This document shows, one piece after another, positions 2,216 through 12,802 of a stretch of 43,698 bases of DNA. The notes below the pieces were generated by a model, which was given only the letters and a program-made list of their open reading frames with translations, ran no database searches and was not told where the DNA came from. Positions within the stretch are counted from its first letter, which is position 1; each line of letters begins with the position of its first letter. Source of the stretch: Arenicellales bacterium. Its GTDB lineage: Bacteria; Pseudomonadota; Gammaproteobacteria; BMS3Bbin11. The stretch lies in assembly GCA_029287915.1 (NCBI GenBank), contig JARFQE010000091.1:1-43698 (forward strand). Reading direction: 5' to 3'. Both the position numbers and the translations under genes were made by a program.

Positions 2216-3577
2216 ATGAAATCAGTCAGTCAACGCCTGCTGCGCGGTGGCATTATCGCTGTTCTGGGCCGCACGTTTGTTGCTGTTGGTGTGGTTCTAG
2301 TAAATGCTCTCGTGGCACGCTTACTGTCGCCTGCGGAGACTGGATTGTTTCTACTGGCACTAAGCATTGTTACCGTAGGAGCAGTTATCGCAGACTTTGG
2401 ATTTGGTAAAACGTTGCTACGCGTTATCCCTGATGCTGTTATCAGTGGCGAACAGGCACGTGCAGTGTCCCATATTAAACATGTTTTCGCTGCAGTGTCT
2501 CTGACTGCTATGGCAACTACACTGGTTCTTGTCAGTCCTGCTGGAATCTGGCTTGCAGGAAAGCTTTCACATGGACATTTGCTTGCAGAACTTATGCCAC
2601 TGATAGCTTTGTGGCTAATAGTGACCGTCGTAACCAGCTTGCTGGCAGAAACCTGTCGTGGCTTCCATTATATTGCGGCGGCAATATTTTATGGCGGTGC
2701 CCTGACAGGTCTGGGCAATATTCTAATCGTTTCAATAACACTAACTACTGCCTGGTACGTTTCTGTCGCAATAACACTGAAACAACTGATCGTAATATTT
2801 ATCCTTGCAGGTCTGCTTCTGTCACTTCTGGCGACACTCAAGATTCGTCAACGATTACAAAATTGCTCTGAAGGGGAGAGCAATGGCTCAATAAAAACGC
2901 TCTTCATCATGGCCTGGCCTTTCTGGTTTTCAAGTATGGCTCTTATCCTGATGACTCATGCAGAAATCTGGATACTGGGTTATCTACGACCACCGGAGGA
3001 AGTTGCAGCGTTTGGTCTGGTTGCTAGAGTTGCACTGCTGGTCAGTTTTCCGCTGGTCATTGTTAATAGCGTACTGCCACCATTAATATCCGAGCTGTAC
3101 GCAAATGATGATATAAGGAAAATGGAGCGAATGCTGCAGGTTTCTGCAGGTTTAACTACGCTATGTTCGCTGGGTGTTTTTCTGGTCTTGCTGGTTCTTG
3201 GTGACTGGTTGCCGCAGTTCCTGTTTGGCGATATTTATTCTGGCAACTGGAAAGTCATGATGATACTGGCGGTCGGCTGGTTATTTCATGTTTGGGCCGG
3301 CTCAGGAGGATTTGTTCTTAACATGACTGATAATCAGAAAAGTGCAATGATTATCAATATTGCTGTAGGCGGACTTACAATACTTATGGGAGTCTGGCTG
3401 ACGGATCTGTATGGCGGGCTTGGTATGGCAATAGCATCATCGTCTGGCATTGTCCTGGTGAACATTCTTATGCTGCTAGTAATAAGATATAAACTTGGTA
3501 TTCATATCTATGCAGGACTCTCAGGTCTACGGGATATCAAGAGCGAAGTGACCAGGCGCATGCAGGCTCTGCAGTAG
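2216..3577 (+). CDS. Polysaccharide flippase, Wzx/MOP-type membrane protein
   Basis: This is a 453-residue integral membrane protein with hydrophobic helices along its whole length. The N-terminus (basic RLLRGG followed by a long hydrophobic stretch) and the alternating helix/short-loop pattern fit the Polysacc_synt/MATE-like (MOP) exporters. These flip undecaprenyl-linked oligosaccharides across the inner membrane. It is the first gene of a co-directional set with a sulfotransferase, two FkbM methyltransferases and a family 2 glycosyltransferase, which supports a role in surface-glycan export. The gap to the next gene is only 19 bases. No Wzy polymerase or initiating glycosyl-1-phosphate transferase is seen nearby, so the substrate must be completed elsewhere or the flippase serves another pathway. 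The family call is firm; the substrate is unknown. Confidence 0.85.
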   Translation: MKSVSQRLLRGGIIAVLGRTFVAVGVVLVNALVARLLSPAETGLFLLALSIVTVGAVIADFGFGKTLLRVIPDAVISGEQARAVSHIKHVFAAVSLTAMATTLVLVSPAGIWLAGKLSHGHLLAELMPLIALWLIVTVVTSLLAETCRGFHYIAAAIFYGGALTGLGNILIVSITLTTAWYVSVAITLKQLIVIFILAGLLLSLLATLKIRQRLQNCSEGESNGSIKTLFIMAWPFWFSSMALILMTHAEIWILGYLRPPEEVAAFGLVARVALLVSFPLVIVNSVLPPLISELYANDDIRKMERMLQVSAGLTTLCSLGVFLVLLVLGDWLPQFLFGDIYSGNWKVMMILAVGWLFHVWAGSGGFVLNMTDNQKSAMIINIAVGGLTILMGVWLTDLYGGLGMAIASSSGIVLVNILMLLVIRYKLGIHIYAGLSGLRDIKSEVTRRMQALQ

Positions 3578-3596
3578 AACATGACAGATTAGGGTT

Positions 3597-4313
3597 ATGA
3601 AAAATTTTGTAAGATGGCTCAGAAACAGGCGTTTTCGGGTCAGACAGTTTACTGCCAGATATCCGTGGATGTTTTTTAGCCTCTACAAGTTAAGTTCGTA
3701 TAACAGAAAACTGATGGTTACCCGTCGTACACGGATCACCATAGAGGGTTATCCGCGTTCTGCAAATACTTATGCAGTCTATGCCTTCAAGCATGTTAAT
3801 GAAATTCAGTGGAATGAGGTGGGTCATCATTTGCATGTTCAGGCACAGATCATTCGTTCTGTAAAATATCAGATACCGGTTATTCTGTTAATACGCCACC
3901 CATTAGAGGCTGTTCGTTCCCTCGTTGTCAGGCATGACTTTATCCCGGTTGCTGATGCGCTAGAGGATTACACACGTTTTTATTCTGATCTGTACAAATT
4001 AAGAGACAGCTTTGTTGTTGCAAATTTTGACGATGTCACTGAGCACTTTGGTAAGATTATTGAGCGGGTAAATAAACGCTTCAGCACCAAATTTAATCTG
4101 TTCCCGGATCATGATGAGCAGGCGAAAGCTGCTGTATTTGATGAAATTGATAGACGAAACAGGAGTCTGGACAATGGGAAGGTGACCCACCTTTATCGCC
4201 CTGATAAGAATAAAGATAATATGAAGGATGCAGTTGAATTACAGGAGGATAATGAGCTCTATCTAAATGCACTTGGTATTTATAAAAAATATATACTGCT
4301 TGCCGAAAAGTAA
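3597..4313 (+). CDS. Sulfotransferase-domain protein (PAPS-dependent)
   Basis: The 238-residue product has the two hallmarks of the PAPS-binding sulfotransferase fold. A 5'-phosphosulfate loop, GYPRSANTY, lies at residues 51-59, and a 3'-phosphate motif, RHPLEAVRS, at about 100-108. Between them is HH (about 77-78), where family members carry catalytic or substrate-contacting residues; that assignment is inference. Such enzymes transfer sulfate from PAPS to hydroxyl or amino groups of glycans or small molecules. Its place between a flippase and a FkbM methyltransferase suggests sulfation of a surface saccharide. The 3' part is strikingly AT-rich: I count 38 G+C in 120 bases over 4201-4320, against 33 in 60 in a gatB stretch at 21421-21480. 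This is consistent with horizontal acquisition of the cassette. Confidence 0.78.
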   Translation: MKNFVRWLRNRRFRVRQFTARYPWMFFSLYKLSSYNRKLMVTRRTRITIEGYPRSANTYAVYAFKHVNEIQWNEVGHHLHVQAQIIRSVKYQIPVILLIRHPLEAVRSLVVRHDFIPVADALEDYTRFYSDLYKLRDSFVVANFDDVTEHFGKIIERVNKRFSTKFNLFPDHDEQAKAAVFDEIDRRNRSLDNGKVTHLYRPDKNKDNMKDAVELQEDNELYLNALGIYKKYILLAEK

Positions 4314-4343
4314 GCCTGTTGCAGACCATGACAATAAAGATTT

Positions 4344-5159
4344 ATGAGTAGAAAGATACATAAGTTTGAAAACGGTGTCTGTGTCTATGACGACCATCTG
4401 ATGCCGGCACAGCGCCAGCGCTACAAGACTAGAAATGTTCATGAAGCTGATGAAGAAGACCTGTTTATAGAGATAGTAACTTCACTGCCCGAACATTCAT
4501 GCTTCGTCAATATTGGTACTGCCATCGGTTACTATGTGATACTGGCTAAGAAACTATCACCAAAACTACGTATCCATGCAGTGGAACCTCTGGAATTATT
4601 TCGAAACTACTTAAACGAAAATATTCTGCTTAATAATCTAAAAGCACAGGATTTCGTTATTCATAAATACGCTGTTGGTGCTACCGAAGGCCGTGCCGGT
4701 TTTCTTGAAAAAGGTTATGAGAGCCAATTGCTGGTAAATAAGGAAGGTTTTGGAATGCTCCATCTGTTTATATTGCAGCTGAAGAACCTGACAAAAGGGC
4801 TACTTGGTAGCATTGGTGTAAAGCGATATGCAGCAGGTGCCGGCAGGAAATCAGATATTGATACAGTCTCGCTGGAAACGCTGGTGAATCAGGTCGGCCG
4901 GCAAATCGATTTGTTATCAATGGATGTGCAGGGGCTGGAGCTAGATATTCTATCAGGAGGTCAGGCTGTTCTTGAATCGGGAAAAGTGAAGACGTTTATT
5001 ATCGGCACACATGGAAAGGTGATTCATCAGCAATGTATAAATATGTTAACAAGTAACGACTATTCAATTGAATACGAAAAGGAAGATACACGGCACCAGC
5101 CAGACGGTATTATTATCGCGAGCAAGGGTGTTCAGCGGCTTGCCTCACAGGCTGGCTGA
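4344..5159 (+). CDS. FkbM family methyltransferase (first copy)
   Basis: The 271-residue product has the FkbM-type Rossmann fold. The SAM-binding motif I is CFVNIGTAIGYY (about 53-64), with Asn where most family members have Asp. An acidic ribose-binding AVEP follows at about 79-82. The family's C-terminal LLSMDVQGLELDIL block lies at about 190-203, where the Asp and Glu are typical conserved residues. FkbM enzymes O-methylate sugars or polyketides. In this cassette a glycan is the likely acceptor. The gene starts 31 bases after the sulfotransferase and ends 6 bases before the glycosyltransferase, so the set is probably cotranscribed. A second FkbM gene lies at 5958-6737, and the two differ enough that a recent duplication is unlikely. 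Confidence 0.83.
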   Translation: MSRKIHKFENGVCVYDDHLMPAQRQRYKTRNVHEADEEDLFIEIVTSLPEHSCFVNIGTAIGYYVILAKKLSPKLRIHAVEPLELFRNYLNENILLNNLKAQDFVIHKYAVGATEGRAGFLEKGYESQLLVNKEGFGMLHLFILQLKNLTKGLLGSIGVKRYAAGAGRKSDIDTVSLETLVNQVGRQIDLLSMDVQGLELDILSGGQAVLESGKVKTFIIGTHGKVIHQQCINMLTSNDYSIEYEKEDTRHQPDGIIIASKGVQRLASQAG

Positions 5160-5164
5160 TAGTT

Positions 5165-5920
5165 ATGAAAGTCTCAGTCATAACCGTTGTCTATAATGCT
5201 GCTGATACCATAGAAGATACGATAAAATCAGTCATTGAACAGGATTATGACAATATAGAGTATATAGTAATCGATGGTGGCTCGACAGATGGCACGCTGG
5301 ATGTTGTAAACAGATATCGAGAGCACCTGTCAGCAGTCGTGTCTGAACCGGACGATGGTATCTATGATGCGATGAACAAGGGTATAGATATCGCAACTGG
5401 TGATGTTGTCGGTACACTCAATGCGGATGACTGGTACGTGGATAACGGTGTCATAAGCAAAGTTGTTAGTGCTTTCAATGAAGACAATAAACTTGATGCA
5501 GTGTATGGCGATATCGTCTTTGTGACAAGGGAAAAACCTTACAGGATTGTTCGCTACTGGGAATCCCGATCCTATCATGATGGGATGTTTAACAAAGGAT
5601 GGATGCCGCCTCACCCAACTTTTTTCGTAAAGCGGGAAATATATCTCCGCTATGGCATGTATGATGTTGATCTGAAAATACAGTCAGATTTTGATTTGAC
5701 GATGCGTTTTCTGGCAGTGAACAGGATTAGAACTCAGTATCTGCCAGGAGTTATGGTGAACATGCGTATGGGAGGTGTGACAAGTAATAATCTCAGTAAT
5801 GTGATTAAAGGTAATCTTGAGGCATACAGGGCCTGCAGAAAAAATGGTCTCGCTGTAACTCCAGTTTTTATGGTGAGAAAGGTATTGTCGCGCATACCTC
5901 AATTCTTCCGCAAACCGTGA
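5165..5920 (+). CDS. Family 2 glycosyltransferase
   Basis: This is a GT-A fold, inverting glycosyltransferase of 251 residues. The N-terminus MKVSVITVVYNAADTI is the classic nucleotide-binding strand. DGGSTDGT lies at about 37-44 and the metal-binding DXD equivalent NADDW at about 87-91. The acceptor-side segment MPPHPTFF (about 147-154), followed by a YDVDLKIQSDFDL stretch, resembles WcaE-like transferases that add a sugar to a lipid-linked glycan. It has no membrane helices, so it probably acts at the cytoplasmic face of the inner membrane. It sits between two FkbM methyltransferases in the polysaccharide cassette. The donor sugar and linkage cannot be read from the sequence. Confidence 0.9.
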   Translation: MKVSVITVVYNAADTIEDTIKSVIEQDYDNIEYIVIDGGSTDGTLDVVNRYREHLSAVVSEPDDGIYDAMNKGIDIATGDVVGTLNADDWYVDNGVISKVVSAFNEDNKLDAVYGDIVFVTREKPYRIVRYWESRSYHDGMFNKGWMPPHPTFFVKREIYLRYGMYDVDLKIQSDFDLTMRFLAVNRIRTQYLPGVMVNMRMGGVTSNNLSNVIKGNLEAYRACRKNGLAVTPVFMVRKVLSRIPQFFRKP

Positions 5921-5957
5921 ATTTCGAATTGATTGGAAGTAACGCCTGGATCGGGAT

Positions 5958-6737
5958 ATGAAATCATTGATTAAAACCTTGCTGGCCTCTATTGGACTCG
6001 AACTGCGAAGAACCCGGCCCACGATAGGAACATTTCCTCTGGACCCGTACTTTGCACAGAAAGAGTTTATCGAAAAGCTGGGCGTAAGTGATCCGGTTAT
6101 TTTTGATATTGGTGCCCATATGGGAGAGACTGTGAATCGTTATAAAGGCCTGTTCAAGGATTCAAGTGTCTACTGTTTCGAACCTTTCCCTGATAATGTG
6201 AGGTTTCTCCGGTCAAGGTATTCCTCCGACCCGACAATACATGTTTTTGATCAGGCAGTTTCAGATAGCTGTGGGATGAAAACCTTTTACGTAAATGAAA
6301 ACGATGCGACAAATTCATTGCTACCTCGGGATAAATCTGGCCGCAGGTATTACAGTAAAGCCGCCGCTGCGAAAACGCAACTGGATATAGAGACGATTAC
6401 CATAGATGAGGTAATGAAACAGCATGGCATTGAAAGCGTTGATATACTGAAACTTGATATTCAGGGCGGCGAACTGATGGCATTACAGGGTGCTGAAAAG
6501 GCTCTGCATCAACAGAGAATATCAATTCTCTATAGCGAAGCCCTGTTTGTTCCACACTATGAAAATAATCCTTTATTACGTGATTTATGGAATTATCTGC
6601 AGCAATTTGGGTACACTATATTCAATATCTACGATCTGTACCGAGCGGCAAATGGACAACTGCGTTTTGCCGATGTGATATTTGTCAGTAAACAGGTTCG
6701 AAGTAATGTCCTGGACCGCTATAAAGCGGAACCATGA
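5958..6737 (+). CDS. FkbM family methyltransferase (second copy)
   Basis: The 259-residue product has a canonical motif I, FDIGAHMGE (about 49-57), an acidic CFEPFP (about 73-78), and the FkbM C-terminal block VDILKLDIQGGELMAL (about 161-176). It is the last gene of the polysaccharide cassette. The 37-base gap from the glycosyltransferase is the widest inside the set. Like the first copy, it should transfer a methyl group from SAM to a sugar hydroxyl. Two methyltransferases and a sulfotransferase around one glycosyltransferase suggest a heavily capped or decorated saccharide. No terminator was recognised in the 129 bases before rsd. Confidence 0.86.
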   Translation: MKSLIKTLLASIGLELRRTRPTIGTFPLDPYFAQKEFIEKLGVSDPVIFDIGAHMGETVNRYKGLFKDSSVYCFEPFPDNVRFLRSRYSSDPTIHVFDQAVSDSCGMKTFYVNENDATNSLLPRDKSGRRYYSKAAAAKTQLDIETITIDEVMKQHGIESVDILKLDIQGGELMALQGAEKALHQQRISILYSEALFVPHYENNPLLRDLWNYLQQFGYTIFNIYDLYRAANGQLRFADVIFVSKQVRSNVLDRYKAEP

Positions 6738-6866: not shown

Positions 6867-7301
6867 ATGGCTAAATCTGTGAATAAAAGGGAATATACCA
6901 GAGAGCAAATATTAAAACTGGTTGCTGAGAGACAGGAAATGCTGGTGCTGTTCTGTCAGTTGGCAGGGCTTGATCCATATAATACAAATGAGCCTGTTGA
7001 TTTGAAACTGAAAGCCTTTTGCCAGAAGATGATCGATTATATAGCTGCCGGGCATTTTGCTATTTATGATCGTCTATCAAATGGTGGTGAACGGCGTCAA
7101 CAGGTACTGGAAGTAGCGGCACACGTATATTCCTGCATAGAAGATACAACTGATGTCGCCCTCGCCTTTAATGACAAGTACGATGAACATGATCATGTCA
7201 TCGATTACAGTAACCTTACGAATGATCTTGCCATGCTCGGTGAGGTAATGAGTAATCGTGCAGATTACGAAGACCGACTGATAGATGCATTAGTTTCTTG
7301 A
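6867..7301 (+). CDS. rsd: Rsd/AlgQ-family anti-sigma-70 regulator
   Basis: The 144-residue, all-helical product matches the Rsd/AlgQ family. The recognisable blocks are ERQEMLVLFCQLAGLDP (about 21-37) and FCQKMIDYIAAGHFAIYDRL (about 51-70). The latter is the family signature found in E. coli Rsd and Pseudomonas AlgQ. Rsd binds region 4 of the housekeeping sigma factor RpoD and shifts RNA polymerase toward alternative sigma factors. In Pseudomonas AlgQ also affects alginate and siderophore genes. A GAGAAAACT stretch lies some 17 bases upstream of the start, rather far for a ribosome site. The stop codon overlaps the TTG start of the next gene, so anti-sigma factor and glycosyltransferase are probably translationally coupled. 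Length is slightly below that of E. coli Rsd (158). Confidence 0.85.
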   Translation: MAKSVNKREYTREQILKLVAERQEMLVLFCQLAGLDPYNTNEPVDLKLKAFCQKMIDYIAAGHFAIYDRLSNGGERRQQVLEVAAHVYSCIEDTTDVALAFNDKYDEHDHVIDYSNLTNDLAMLGEVMSNRADYEDRLIDALVS

Positions 7302-8974
7302 CACTCCCCAGACCATTCATACTTGCGCTAATTCTATTCCTACTGGCAGTTGCAGTTCTTTTACCGGGAATTTCTGACGTTACAGGAATAACCGGTAAAG
7401 ACGAGTATTTGCTTGGCCTGCGCACACCTATGCATATGATTGAGGGCGGGCATGGCTGGTTGCCCTGGCTGGATGGTGAACCACGGCTGAAAAAACCTCC
7501 TCTAATTTACTGGTTGGGCAAGATTTCATATGAAACCTTTGGCGTTTCTCTGTTCTCCGGACGTATCATCGGTGTATTTTTCGCTGCATTATTTTCAGTG
7601 GCCTGCAGCCTGATAGCGTGGTGTTTATTCAGAGACAGGAAAGCAATGCTTTTTGCAGGACTCATAGTGCTTGGAAGTATTGGAATCATGATTGATGGCC
7701 GTCGCCTGATGCTTGATATTCCCGTCGCTGCATTATCGGCACTGGCTGTGCTGTTTCTGCTGAACTGGCTAAAAAGCGAAAGTACTATCTATATCATCGG
7801 ATCAGGGCTTTCACTCGGTCTTGCTTTTTTGGTCAAGGGGCCGGTGGCATTTTTCTTTTATTTTTCGGCAATGCTGGCTTTATTAATCGCCGCTCCAGGT
7901 ATACATGCATTTTTCAGGCGATCGTGGCATGCGGGTCTGACAGGTTTACTAGCATTTCTCCTGTTAGTCGTGCCCTGGTTTGTCTTTATCTATTTACAGT
8001 ATCCTGATCTACTCGCGAAAACTTTTTCATCCGAAGTGGCTGAGCGGGAACTGTTCAATTTCTCACTTAGTCCAATATTCAGTTTGCTTGTATTGGCATT
8101 GCCGTGGTCTCCTGCGGGCCTGGCGTTTATGTTACGTAAGCAAACACAGCCATTAACAACTGATCACAAAATCAGTCAGGTCATCAGCACGAAAAAGTTT
8201 CTTGTCATCTGGCTGATCGTAGCGATTCTGCCATTTTTCTTTTTTAAAAGTTTCAGTCGCTACCTTTATGGCTGCATGATCCCTTTATCATTGCTGGTGA
8301 CTATGCTGATCCTTGAAAAAGACAGGCTCGCCGAGTATCGAATCTGGTTAAAGACTGGTGCGGCACTGTCGTTGCTAATAGGTGGCCTGCTATGTTTTTT
8401 TCTGATCTGGTTCAGAGGCTGGCAAGCGATACTTATTGTTCCTCTATTTTTTATGTTTGTATTTGGTTTCAGCTGGTGGCGAGCAAAGGATCTTTTGCAA
8501 ATGGCTGTTATATCAATTGTTTACTGGCTAGGTATCATCAGCATGATTTATCCAGCATTGGGGATTAACAGAATACCTGATGGTGTGGTAGAGAAAGTCA
8601 AGGGCGAGTATGTGGTGCTGTTTGCCGGTCCGCAGCCTGCCATGCTGCCAATCGTAGCCGGGGTCGGTATGCGAGATACATCACGCCTGTGGACATTGCC
8701 ACAGGAGAAACGTGATAGCTGTAAAGGTATCCTGATTTTTAGCCCGGTCAAACACTTTATTACAGCCAGAATGCAGCTGGATAAATTAAACCATAGCTGG
8801 TCAGAACTTGGCCGTTATCGTGTTTTATCTTCAAGGGGTTCATGGTTGAACATTGCACATGAAGATGCCAGTTCAGATGACTGGAAACAGGCTTTCATGG
8901 AACGAGATCTTGATTTACTGGGCACAGAGCTCATTCTTGTTCGGTCAACGGCAAAGCAATGCATAGCACAATGA
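7298..8974 (+). CDS. ArnT-like glycosyltransferase family 39 protein
   Basis: This is a 558-residue polytopic inner-membrane protein of the GT39/GT83 type, which uses polyprenyl-phosphate sugars as donors in the periplasm. The first periplasmic loop carries an acidic GKDEYLLG (about 33-40), the catalytic acidic position in ArnT/PMT enzymes. It is followed by KKPPLIYWLG (about 65-74), the well-known ArnT loop motif. About a dozen hydrophobic helices follow, then a roughly 120-residue soluble C-terminal domain. The start is a TTG overlapping the rsd stop (TTGA). It is preferred because the next in-frame Met would remove the first helix and the catalytic loop. The gene overlaps the sialidase-like gene at ATGA. 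The target could be lipid A, a glycan or a protein; the sequence does not say. Confidence 0.84.
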   Translation: MTLPRPFILALILFLLAVAVLLPGISDVTGITGKDEYLLGLRTPMHMIEGGHGWLPWLDGEPRLKKPPLIYWLGKISYETFGVSLFSGRIIGVFFAALFSVACSLIAWCLFRDRKAMLFAGLIVLGSIGIMIDGRRLMLDIPVAALSALAVLFLLNWLKSESTIYIIGSGLSLGLAFLVKGPVAFFFYFSAMLALLIAAPGIHAFFRRSWHAGLTGLLAFLLLVVPWFVFIYLQYPDLLAKTFSSEVAERELFNFSLSPIFSLLVLALPWSPAGLAFMLRKQTQPLTTDHKISQVISTKKFLVIWLIVAILPFFFFKSFSRYLYGCMIPLSLLVTMLILEKDRLAEYRIWLKTGAALSLLIGGLLCFFLIWFRGWQAILIVPLFFMFVFGFSWWRAKDLLQMAVISIVYWLGIISMIYPALGINRIPDGVVEKVKGEYVVLFAGPQPAMLPIVAGVGMRDTSRLWTLPQEKRDSCKGILIFSPVKHFITARMQLDKLNHSWSELGRYRVLSSRGSWLNIAHEDASSDDWKQAFMERDLDLLGTELILVRSTAKQCIAQ

Positions 8975-10104
8975 AATTACTGGTTTTTATTTCTGCAGTG
9001 GTCGTGCTTGCCACGGTTGCACTATGGCAATCGTCTAACAGAACAGTGAGTTGGAATATACAGTCTGAAAAACAATCTGCTAGTACCGAACAGCAGCCTG
9101 TATTCCAGAAGTCATTTATTTTTCAACAGGGCCCAACCGATAGCGTCCATTCATCGTCAATAGTTTCCCTGGCTGATAATGAGTTGCTGGCTGTCTGGTA
9201 TGGCGGTTCACGTGAGGGGGCATCGGATGTGGCAATATACAGCTCACGCAAGGGAGCCGATGAGACAGACTGGAGTGAGCCTGAAGTGCTGTTAGATCAC
9301 GATCGGGTAGCAAACGACCTTGGGCGTTATATCAGAAAGCTCGGCAATCCGGTGTTATTGTCTGATGGAACAAAGACGGTATGGATGTTTTTTGTTTCAA
9401 CCACAATCGGAGGTTGGTCAACCAGCACCATCAATATGGTAGTGTCGCACGATGCTGGTCGTAGCTGGGGCAGTACAAAACGCCTGATTTCATCGCCATT
9501 TTTAAATCTCAGTACGCTGGTAAAAGGTCGCCCTTTTTTCTATCAGGATGGCACTATTGGTTTGCCTGCATACCATGAGCTGGCGGGTAAGTTTGCTGAG
9601 CTATTACGCGTGACGCAAGATGGCGAAGTAGTAAATAAAGTTCGTATCACGCATGGACGATACACCATCCAGCCATCTATCGCGAAGCTGGAGAATGATC
9701 GTCTACTTGCGCTGATGCGAAATACTGATGCGACCAGAAACGTAGTCCGCGCGTACGCGGAAAAGGGCGGCCAAAAGTGGTCCGACGCTGAATACATAGA
9801 CCTTAATAACCCGGATGCAGCGATATCGGTAGTCGGTAATAAATCCGCTCTGGTGCTGGCCTACAATGACGCGAAGTGGGATCGTTACCATCTTGCACTA
9901 TCTGTTTCAGTGAATGCCGGTATGAACTGGGAAAAAAGATTGATACTCGAATCTGCTGAGCTGGATAAGCAAGGTAATAAGTTAGAGTTTTCCTACCCGT
10001 TTCTTATTAAAACAGCAAAGGGTGAATACCATCTGGTCTACACATGGCAGCGAAAACGCATTGCCTATGTGCATTTTAATCAGGCCTGGCTGGAGCAACA
10101 GTAA
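8971..10104 (+). CDS. Sialidase-like BNR/Asp-box protein, membrane-anchored or secreted
   Basis: The 377-residue product has an N-terminal hydrophobic segment (MKLLVFISAVVVLATVALW) that is a signal peptide or anchor. A six-bladed sialidase-like propeller follows. It starts with HSSSIVSLADNELLAVWYGG, where sialidases have their first arginine motif; no clear RIP is present. An Asp box, SHDAGRSW, lies at about 159-166 and a degenerate one, VNAGMNW, in the C-terminal third. The stretch YGGSREGASDVAIYSSR is typical of uncharacterised BNR_2 sialidase-family proteins. True sialidase activity is therefore not established, and another glycosidase or lyase is possible. The ATG at 8971 overlaps the upstream stop as ATGA. 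An ATG at 8959 is an alternative start. Confidence 0.75.
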   Translation: MKLLVFISAVVVLATVALWQSSNRTVSWNIQSEKQSASTEQQPVFQKSFIFQQGPTDSVHSSSIVSLADNELLAVWYGGSREGASDVAIYSSRKGADETDWSEPEVLLDHDRVANDLGRYIRKLGNPVLLSDGTKTVWMFFVSTTIGGWSTSTINMVVSHDAGRSWGSTKRLISSPFLNLSTLVKGRPFFYQDGTIGLPAYHELAGKFAELLRVTQDGEVVNKVRITHGRYTIQPSIAKLENDRLLALMRNTDATRNVVRAYAEKGGQKWSDAEYIDLNNPDAAISVVGNKSALVLAYNDAKWDRYHLALSVSVNAGMNWEKRLILESAELDKQGNKLEFSYPFLIKTAKGEYHLVYTWQRKRIAYVHFNQAWLEQQ

Positions 10105-10688
10105 TGAGTCACTTAATGATGAATATCGGTACATTGTTAATAGTGGCTGCATTTGGTGTCCAGCTCAGCTTGCTGTTGAAACCGCCATATCGGTGGCTCG
10201 CTATGGCCTGCCTTGTTTTGCTGTCAGTTATTTTACCCGTAGCAGGAACTAAGCCATGGCTATGGATCAATGGCGCGGTTGGTGAATTAAGCGTAGTGAC
10301 CATGATATTGCTGACAGGTTTTATTCTACGCAACCTGACTGGCTTCAGTCTTACTGGATCGTATACGAGGGTCCATATTTACCTTGTTATCTTCATCGCG
10401 GGGCTGCTGTTATTTCCCGCGACACTGGGGCTGACACAGTTTGACCCCTATTCGTTGGGATATAGTTTTGAACTGTCTTTGCTTCTACTCGCGCTTTCAA
10501 TTTTTTACTGGTTGTTTCAGCAGCGACATCTTGCTGTCATTCTGTTGATTGTTGTCGCTGCAGATGAAATCGGCATCCTGTCTTCAAACAATTCCTGGGA
10601 CTACCTGATCGATCCTTTGTTGTGGATAATTTCACCTGTCATGTTGGTCATTATGTATGCAGCTAGGAGAACATCGACAACTAAATAA
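10104..10688 (+). CDS. Integral membrane protein of unknown function
   Basis: I do not recognise this 194-residue protein. It is mostly hydrophobic, with about five to six predicted membrane helices and short, weakly charged loops. A DPYSLGY segment lies in one loop. There is no signal peptide distinct from the first helix and no catalytic motif. Its ATG overlaps the TAA of the sialidase-like gene (TAATG), so it is almost certainly translated with it and with the upstream GT39 gene. A partner role with the GT39 enzyme or the sialidase-like protein is inference from context only. Confidence 0.7.
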   Translation: MSHLMMNIGTLLIVAAFGVQLSLLLKPPYRWLAMACLVLLSVILPVAGTKPWLWINGAVGELSVVTMILLTGFILRNLTGFSLTGSYTRVHIYLVIFIAGLLLFPATLGLTQFDPYSLGYSFELSLLLLALSIFYWLFQQRHLAVILLIVVAADEIGILSSNNSWDYLIDPLLWIISPVMLVIMYAARRTSTTK

Positions 10689-11202: not shown

Positions 11203-12084
11203 TTATTTATCATAAAATTTTTCACCATTTTTCTGAAAACGCTTATACACCCATAGATACTGATCCGGTGCCATGCGTATACATTTCTCTACCTGAGCGT
11301 TAATGCGCGCCGCAGATTCTTCTACTGAAGTAGTTGTGATAAGTTCATCAGGCGGAAGAAAATGCAGGCGAAAACCGCGCGACCACGGGAGCCGTTCTGC
11401 AAAGCCGAAGATAACCGTGGCATTTGTTTTGATCGCAAGGCTGCTCAATAAATTCATGGTCAAAGCCGGCTTACCAAAAAAGGGTGCTATAACACCACCC
11501 TGCGAGGGAACCTGATCAGGCAGGATGCCTATCAATTCACCTTTGCGCAGAGCTTTTAGCAGGGCACGGATGCCGCTGCTATCTGTTGGCACATAGCGTC
11601 CTCCACTACCTTCACGTCCGTCTTTTATAAGCTTGTTCAGTCCTTTTAAAGGTGGTTTTCGAAACATACTGGTAAGCGGATATTCAGACGAGCAATAACT
11701 ACCAAAGAGCTCCCATGAACCCAGGTGTGGGGTTGCCAGGATTACTCCTTTTCCATTTTTAAGACAGTGGCGGACATATTCTTCACCGCTGACCGATCTT
11801 ATCAGGGCCAGATTTTTTTCAGCGGGCTGTAGCCAGAATTTGCCAACCTCCATTAGATTGCATGCGGTCTGGCGAAAATTTTTTCTTAGCAGCCGCCTTT
11901 GTTCAATGTCTGAAAGCTCAGGAAAACATGCCTCGATATTAGTATGACAGGTAAGTACCCGCTTGCTCGGAATGATTGCCAGTAGGCTACCGATGAAATT
12001 GCCAATGACGTGAAGTACGGGTAATGGTAGATGGGCATTGGTTCTCAGTACCCATTCGGCTATTCTTTCTATTTTAGTTCCCAT
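11203..12084 (-). CDS. Lipid A / lysophospholipid acyltransferase, LpxL (HtrB) family
   Basis: The 293-residue product matches the LpxL/LpxM late acyltransferases of lipid A. The catalytic HX4E motif is TPHLGSWELFG, with His120 and Glu125. Further blocks are DGREGSGGRYVP, the GILPDQVPSQGG segment with FFGKPA, and a C-terminal YLWVYKRF. These enzymes transfer an acyl chain from acyl-ACP to Kdo2-lipid IVA at the cytoplasmic face of the inner membrane. The frame extends upstream to 12222, but the Met at 12084 matches the family N-terminus (IERIAEWVLR) and avoids overlap with the divergent gene at 12116. Whether it adds laurate (LpxL) or myristate (LpxM), or is a related ornithine-lipid or WaaM-type enzyme, cannot be decided here. 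Confidence 0.85.
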   Translation of the reverse strand: MGTKIERIAEWVLRTNAHLPLPVLHVIGNFIGSLLAIIPSKRVLTCHTNIEACFPELSDIEQRRLLRKNFRQTACNLMEVGKFWLQPAEKNLALIRSVSGEEYVRHCLKNGKGVILATPHLGSWELFGSYCSSEYPLTSMFRKPPLKGLNKLIKDGREGSGGRYVPTDSSGIRALLKALRKGELIGILPDQVPSQGGVIAPFFGKPALTMNLLSSLAIKTNATVIFGFAERLPWSRGFRLHFLPPDELITTTSVEESAARINAQVEKCIRMAPDQYLWVYKRFQKNGEKFYDK

Positions 12085-12115
12085 AATCTGATTTTGAAGC
12101 AGCGGGGTGTAGTTG

Positions 12116-12802
12116 ATGGCAGTTTCACAGCTTATCAGTACCATCAGCGACCATATCGTTCTGATTATACTGTGGTTGCTGTATTTTTTTGTCCATTCGC
12201 TTTTTGCCTCCTTACAATTCAAGCAGTTAATATTACAGTATTATCCGCGCATCATGCCCTGGTACCGACTGATATTTAATTTTCTATCCATATTGTTACT
12301 ATTGCCACCGGTTTTTGTTATGTTTTTGTTTCCGGGTGATGTCGTCTGGCAGTGGTCCGGGAACTGGCGTAATTTAGCGAATATACTGACGCTAATGGCG
12401 GTAGCAGGTTTTCTCTGGTCATTGAGATCCTATGATAATGCTGAATTCCTCGGCACCCGTCAGCTGAAAGAGAGCAGGGTAGATATTACAGAAGAGGGAT
12501 CATTAAAGCTTTCAGTGTTGCATCGATATGTTCGCCACCCCTGGTATGCTCTGGCCCTGGTATTAATCTGGACCAGAGATATGAATACTTCATTTTTGAT
12601 TTCAGCTATCTTGATCAGTCTGTATTTAATTATCGGTTCTCGTCTCGAGGAAGGTAAGTTGATCGCTTTCCACGGCGACCAGTATCGAATGTACCGAAAA
12701 TATGTAGCGGCATTGATTCCATTACCCTGGCGTGTACTGAGCAAGGAAAAAGCAGTAGAAATTCAAAATTTTGGGAAAAAGAATGACGCAGTCAAAAAAT
12801 AA
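12116..12802 (+). CDS. ICMT/PEMT-like membrane methyltransferase-family protein
   Basis: The product is about 228 residues with five hydrophobic helices. The C-terminal half has the signature of isoprenylcysteine carboxyl methyltransferase-like proteins: RHPWYALALVLIW, then EEGKLIAFHGDQYRMYRKYVAALIP, that is RHP...EE...GxxYxxY...P. Members methylate small thiols, phospholipids or unknown lipids using SAM. NnrU- and MddA-like proteins share this fold, and I cannot separate these options. The ATG at 12116 is preferred over a TTG at 12113, with a GGGGTG ribosome site 7 bases upstream. It is divergent from the acyltransferase with a 31-base gap, so the two promoters must overlap each other's coding region. 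It overlaps the VOC gene by 20 bases. Confidence 0.72.
   Translation: MAVSQLISTISDHIVLIILWLLYFFVHSLFASLQFKQLILQYYPRIMPWYRLIFNFLSILLLLPPVFVMFLFPGDVVWQWSGNWRNLANILTLMAVAGFLWSLRSYDNAEFLGTRQLKESRVDITEEGSLKLSVLHRYVRHPWYALALVLIWTRDMNTSFLISAILISLYLIIGSRLEEGKLIAFHGDQYRMYRKYVAALIPLPWRVLSKEKAVEIQNFGKKNDAVKK

Follow-up and report, generated by a model that had tools for sequence, protein, structure and literature searches.

We analysed a 43,698-nt stretch of DNA from an Arenicellales bacterium (contig JARFQE010000091.1; hereafter the window), and describe here a cluster of four overlapping genes, two of which resemble KdoH1 and KdoH2, the two components of a hydrolase of 3-deoxy-D-manno-oct-2-ulosonic acid (Kdo). 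Positions are given in window numbering and on the plus strand unless stated otherwise. All four open reading frames (rsd, a GT39-like gene, a BNR gene and a small membrane protein gene) were confirmed on the plus strand, with the following arrangement:

6867..7301, plus strand: rsd/algQ-like anti-sigma-70 gene (PF04353, 3.7e-36), outside the recurrent module
7298..7301, plus strand: TTGA overlap of rsd and the GT39 gene, 4 bp, read in the sequence and not kept in relatives
7298..8974, plus strand: gene for a polytopic glycosyltransferase of GT39 (PMT/ArnT superfamily, GT-C type), with a TTG start (PF13231, 4.7e-14; PF02366, 1.3e-8)
8959..8974, plus strand: overlap of the GT39 and KdoH1-like genes, 16 bp (ATG...TGA), the same in the related genomes G001, G003 and G007
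8959..10104, plus strand: gene for a BNR_2 sialidase-fold protein with one N-terminal membrane helix, the putative KdoH1-like subunit (PF13088, 1.1e-73; AlphaFold model)
10102..10106, plus strand: TAATG overlap of the BNR and membrane protein genes, 1 bp shared (10104), read in the sequence
10104..10688, plus strand: gene for a small polytopic membrane protein, the putative KdoH2-like subunit, with about 7 helices and the motif N-x-W-[DN]-Y-[LF]-x-D (no Pfam family; 3' of the BNR gene in 32/33 loci)

An initial annotation of this sequence had drawn attention to the gene junctions, and both the TTGA between rsd and GT39 and the TAATG between the BNR and membrane protein genes are indeed present. 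It had also read ATGA as the junction between the GT39 and BNR genes. These two genes do overlap, but position 8959 is preferred as the BNR start over 8971, because the 16-bp overlap is kept in the three relatives and the codon matching the internal position is CTG in one of them (G007); the ATGA start, a possible internal start, is hence not conserved. The TTG start of the GT39 gene is credible: two congeners begin this protein at an ATG, with M(T/I)LPRP, to which the MTLPRP of the window aligns. The overlap of the BNR and membrane protein genes is kept in relatives at a few to 25 bp, whereas rsd and GT39 are separated there by 11 to 55 bp, so that only the window has the 4-bp overlap. The cluster shows no convincing internal promoter (four promoter-like sites versus a mean of 8.9 in shuffled sequence), and the genes may be cotranscribed.

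The conserved unit is the pair formed by the BNR gene and the membrane protein gene, because the BNR gene lies directly 5' of the membrane protein gene, on the same strand, in 32 of the 33 membrane-protein loci inspected (13 families, in more than one class of Pseudomonadota). In a sample of 369 genomes of the window's class, the BNR protein had matches in 16 genomes and the membrane protein in 14, mostly the same genomes and with adjacent genes, while the GT39 protein (E <= 1e-30) had matches in 4; a profile of the membrane protein reached another class, with matches in 20 of 398 genomes of the phylum. The initial annotation took GT39, BNR and membrane protein together as the core unit, which these loci do not support: GT39 is optional, and other lineages use a sulfatase-fold protein or none. 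The single exception to the pairing is G004, which is rearranged as follows:

L105:2076-4362: the GT39 gene and, overlapping it, the membrane protein gene, with no BNR gene between them
L047:1257-2414: the BNR gene, on another contig beside a prfB-like gene

The BNR gene of G002 is likewise found beside a prfB-like gene. The membrane protein itself belongs to no Pfam family in a Pfam search, matches TIGR03662 weakly (E 0.0055) and gave nothing useful in a search of the PDB; its AlphaFold-type model contains seven helices at low confidence (predicted local distance difference test, pLDDT, 47).

The BNR protein is modelled by AlphaFold (pLDDT 82.6) as an N-terminal helix (residues 2-26), a poorly modelled linker (27-43) and a propeller, and the best PDB match of this model is the Micromonospora sialidase 1eus (E 2.4e-16, template modelling score 0.70). 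By sequence, a profile is needed to recover such a relationship, since a single-sequence PDB search reaches only E ~0.6. The following positions are relevant to its membrane attachment and putative active site:

8962..9036, plus strand: N-terminal membrane helix, codons 2-26 (model helix 2-26; hydrophobic sequence)
9148..9150, plus strand: codon of His64, which stands where sialidases have the first Arg of their triad (profile alignment to 1sli, by extension)
9214..9216, plus strand: codon of Glu86, near-invariant, aligned with the THD Asp of the intramolecular trans-sialidase 1sli (GGTHD) and a candidate acid/base (alignment)
9718..9720, plus strand: codon of Arg254, corresponding to Arg276 of the Micromonospora sialidase (profile alignment)
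9883..9885, plus strand: codon of Arg309, corresponding to Arg342 of the Micromonospora sialidase (profile alignment)
9994..9996, plus strand: codon of Tyr346, corresponding to the nucleophile Tyr370 of the Micromonospora sialidase (profile alignment)

The place of Glu260, the Glu that partners the nucleophile in the Micromonospora enzyme, is occupied by Gln238 (by extension of the alignment). The protein thus shares with GH33 exo-sialidases such as 1eus the six-bladed propeller, two of the three arginines and the nucleophilic Tyr, but differs from them in having His for the first Arg, Gln for the Glu, a membrane anchor and a conserved membrane partner. The initial annotation had proposed a sialidase-like active site with Arg triad, Tyr and Glu; the fold, two arginines and the Tyr are there, while the complete triad and the Tyr/Glu pair are not. 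We therefore rejected a canonical sialidase function, given the substitution of the first Arg and of the catalytic Glu. Like sialic acid, Kdo is a 2-keto sugar acid, and the arginines would bind the carboxylate of either sugar. Nearly all family members retain Arg254, Arg309, Tyr346 and Glu86. In G010, whose genome measures 1.5 Mb, the paired BNR protein (L051:8493-9785) no longer has the conserved residues at the His, Glu, Arg254 and Tyr positions; judged from its residues, it is likely a pseudoenzyme that is still paired.

A clue to the function of the pair comes from the genome G298 (locus L055; 31% guanine plus cytosine (GC), 2.1 Mb, single contig), where the gene order is slt (1977 bp, minus strand), BNR (plus), membrane protein (plus), a second slt (minus), an mtn-like phosphorylase gene (minus) and a gyrA/parC-type gene (minus). 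In Francisella novicida, mtn (FTN_0493) is followed by a 'hypothetical membrane protein' (FTN_0494) and a 'BNR/Asp-box repeat protein' (FTN_0495) (PMC2928790), and slt (FTN_0496), of 1,977 bp, lies on the strand opposite to FTN_0495 (PMC6587636). FTN_0495/FTN_0494 are KdoH1/KdoH2, located in the inner membrane (PMC4688374), and KdoH1 and KdoH2 of Helicobacter pylori act jointly on the periplasmic side (PMC3245313). The pair of G298 can therefore be assigned to KdoH1/KdoH2, because its locus has the F. novicida order slt-BNR-membrane protein-mtn. As a side observation, two slt-type lytic transglycosylase genes flank the pair in G298 (L055:5026-11591), whereas F. novicida is described with one. 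The two-component hydrolase is also named KdhAB, and its genes in H. pylori are HP0579/HP0580.

Both subunits encoded in the window are homologous to those of G298, and through G298 to the Francisella pair. The window BNR protein matches that of G298 at 1.6e-41, and a membrane-protein profile built without G298 finds the G298 membrane protein at 3.8e-12, all other hits being true family members. In the BNR tree (L056 was left out of the tree and of the later alignments), a branch with 100/100 support separates both G298 and the window from BNR_2 proteins without a membrane partner. The further features of the two components are also found in the window. The BNR subunit is sialidase-like in both domain content and modelled fold (values as above), and KdoH1 is reported (Zhao and Raetz 2010) to have a single N-terminal membrane segment, which agrees with the modelled helix 2-26 followed by a soluble propeller. 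The KdoH2-type partner is polytopic with about 7 segments, and an adjacent polytopic membrane protein is what the loci and the low-confidence seven-helix model show. In addition, the source genome encodes the Kdo transferase WaaA and would therefore make Kdo-lipid A. We accordingly identify the BNR and membrane protein genes as a KdoH1/KdoH2-type two-component Kdo hydrolase, with an activity that is predicted from the genes. The likeness to KdoH1/KdoH2 consists in the adjacent BNR/sialidase-like and polytopic membrane protein genes in both, the slt and mtn flanks in G298 and the inner-membrane setting; the window pair differs in being coupled to a GT39 gene, in its low identity to the Francisella-type copy and in that its activity is a prediction. 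Hence the periplasmic system, which the initial annotation thought could be undescribed, is not wholly so.

The GT39 domain scores above the gathering thresholds (PMT_2, 53.3 bits versus 26.1; PMT, 35.1 versus 22.7), and the KDE, KPP and LDIP motifs are invariant in six homologues. A recurrent neighbourhood of GT39, BNR and membrane protein, as anticipated by the initial annotation, was found in at least four of the numbered families into which the sampled genomes are grouped (G000 is the source genome of the window, and f1 its family):

f1 (G000, G001, G003, G007): GT39 gene adjacent to the pair
f189 (G506, G557, G645, G734): GT39 gene upstream, overlapping
f202 (G717): GT39 gene adjacent to the pair
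f49 (G055, G297): GT39 gene downstream, at about 0.4 kb

In a fifth family, f127 (G246), the GT39 and BNR genes stand at the ends of two contigs, oriented as neighbours would be, and are likely adjacent. There are 39 PMT-domain matches in 23 of these genomes, and since this amounts to ~1.7 PMT-family genes per genome, a chance GT39 neighbour would be expected in roughly 1 genome per 1000 (an estimate that assumes ~2500 genes). Moreover, GT39 proteins from different families share only a remote relationship (hhalign E 2.8e-10 and 9.9e-18), which favours an association that arose repeatedly.

The best named NCBIfam match of the window GT39 protein is ArnT, and its likeness to ArnT/FlmK further includes the PMT superfamily, the acidic and Lys-Pro-Pro motifs and a paralogue in an LPS (lipopolysaccharide) locus. 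This paralogue, found in G003 (L060:3607-11318; E 1e-169, ~48% identical to the window protein), has a ligase-like gene on either side, one recognised by Pfam (Wzy_C) and one by inspection; a GT4-like gene adjoins it, and waaA is close by. Its position in a waaA/O-antigen-ligase locus points to LPS as the acceptor of the GT39 enzyme. The waaA locus of the source genome itself (G000:C10) is similar to that of G003, apparently without that GT39 gene. According to a statement in PMC10743493, citing Marr 2008, ArnT-type relatives add amino sugars to lipid A phosphates, for instance glucosamine in Bordetella.

In other lineages the place beside the pair is taken by a different gene. In f207 (8/10 loci) and f160 (2/2), this gene encodes a membrane protein that carries a sulfatase-fold domain (PF00884); its closest models are LtaS and those of OpgB type, matched far below their cut-offs, and the window has no such gene. 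The pair of f207 is located among heptosyltransferase-, GT4- and GT2-type glycosyltransferase genes (heptosyltransferase by inspection). In G535 (L093:3945-7891), the pair is followed by a tandem of two membrane sulfatase-fold genes that differ from each other, with a third nearby. On the BNR sample tree, the partner labels need nine changes, with weak deep branches.

Taken together, these observations suggest the following mechanism. The KdoH1-like BNR protein would be anchored by its N-terminal helix in the inner membrane, facing the periplasm, and together with the polytopic KdoH2-like protein it would cut the outer Kdo from Kdo2-lipid A/core. On the same membrane face, the ArnT/FlmK-like GT39 enzyme would take a sugar from a polyprenyl-phosphate donor and attach it to lipid A or the inner core, and the overlapping genes may keep trimming and decoration in step. 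The earlier idea that one protein attaches a sugar and another trims it fits these findings, with the GT39 enzyme in the first role and the BNR/membrane protein pair in the second. We regard this explanation as a whole, a KdoH1/KdoH2-type pair plus a GT39 enzyme decorating LPS, with rsd as a mere neighbour, as fairly probable, and the cluster probably serves to trim and decorate the cell surface.

Several observations weigh against it. The Francisella link runs through homology to G298 and through the gene order and GC content of that genome; the G298 BNR protein is only ~24-32% identical to that of the window, carries Asn for Asp90 and Lys for Arg309, and sits on a long branch in a tree with weak inner branches. 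The residues H64, E86, Q238, R254, R309 and Y346 are also found in BNR_2 proteins without a membrane partner (L058, L059), so the active-site set alone is no sign of Kdo. For the GT39 protein, the ArnT equivalog model hit (2.5e-12) reaches 46.2 bits against a cut-off of 567, and PDB sequence searches gave nothing useful and no ArnT match. Finally, six families with the pair (f34, f43, f98, f4, f50 and f192) have neither a GT39 nor a sulfatase-fold gene adjoining it.

Two groups of neighbouring genes may be mentioned here. Upstream (window 2216-6737) are genes for a Wzx-like flippase, a GT2 glycosyltransferase and two FkbM methyltransferases; G001 and G003 have kept the FkbM-GT2-FkbM stretch of this cluster. 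Downstream, and convergent to the module, is a lipid A acyltransferase-like gene of the LpxL family (window 11203-12222, minus strand), which is also next to the module in G001, G003 and G004 and counts in favour of the proposed reading.

The pair might instead be a KdoH-like hydrolase that acts on another 2-keto sugar acid (Ko, legionaminic, pseudaminic or sialic acid), perhaps from the glycan of the upstream cluster. The active-site set is compatible with ulosonic acids in general, the flippase, GT2 and FkbM genes could provide such a glycan and the Francisella-type protein is divergent; nevertheless, the same gene pair occurs in the gene order of the Francisella Kdo hydrolase, the f207 loci are of LPS-core type, and Kdo is the sugar common to the many lineages that carry the pair, whose surface glycans presumably differ. 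We therefore consider another substrate unlikely. Somewhat less likely still is a non-catalytic BNR propeller that binds glycans or regulates, with the membrane protein as its anchor. Replacement of the first Arg and the catalytic Glu of sialidases would agree with such a role, as would G010, which keeps the gene pair despite the loss of nearly every active-site residue, but the four residues kept in nearly all members and the Francisella-type homologue, which belongs to a characterised hydrolase, argue for catalysis.

The weakest reading is that of the initial annotation, a dedicated regulated operon of all four genes in which Rsd, as an RpoD-sequestering regulator, ties sigma-70 availability to envelope modification; rsd does lie directly 5' of GT39 in four f1 genomes, with the 4-bp overlap in the window, but this reading is very improbable, and we rejected a dedicated Rsd-regulated system: rsd adjoins the module in this one family only, is separated from GT39 in each of the three relatives and stands near the module in no other inspected family, and Rsd is elsewhere a general regulator. 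The gene is the sole rsd copy of the genome, and its product scores above the Rsd_AlgQ gathering threshold (124.8 bits versus 35) and below the NCBIfam equivalog cut-off (113.9 versus 139). It is a local chromosomal neighbour, cotranscribed at most, and not a part of the system.

Returning to the pair as a Kdo hydrolase coupled to GT39, such hydrolases are known from a small number of host-associated bacteria, in which the loss of one Kdo alters how lipid A is modified, how sensitive the cells are to polymyxin and how the immune system recognises them (PMC3245313, PMC5371381, PMC10653695). The literature searched, with subscription journals mostly outside the search, yielded no description of linkage between a Kdo hydrolase gene and an ArnT-like one. 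It is possible, and we put it forward tentatively, that the pair is part of a trim-and-cap LPS module extending well beyond Francisella and Helicobacter, in which a KdoH-type hydrolase would remove the outer Kdo and a gene-coupled partner, a polyprenol-dependent GT39 enzyme or an LtaS/OpgB-like phospho-transferase depending on the lineage, would modify the exposed position. Occurring in many families of Pseudomonadota and repeatedly joined to a GT39 or membrane sulfatase-fold gene, the pair would give a role to a widespread 'sialidase-like' family and to a membrane protein family without a Pfam entry, and it would point to candidate partner enzymes that probably act on the trimmed inner core.

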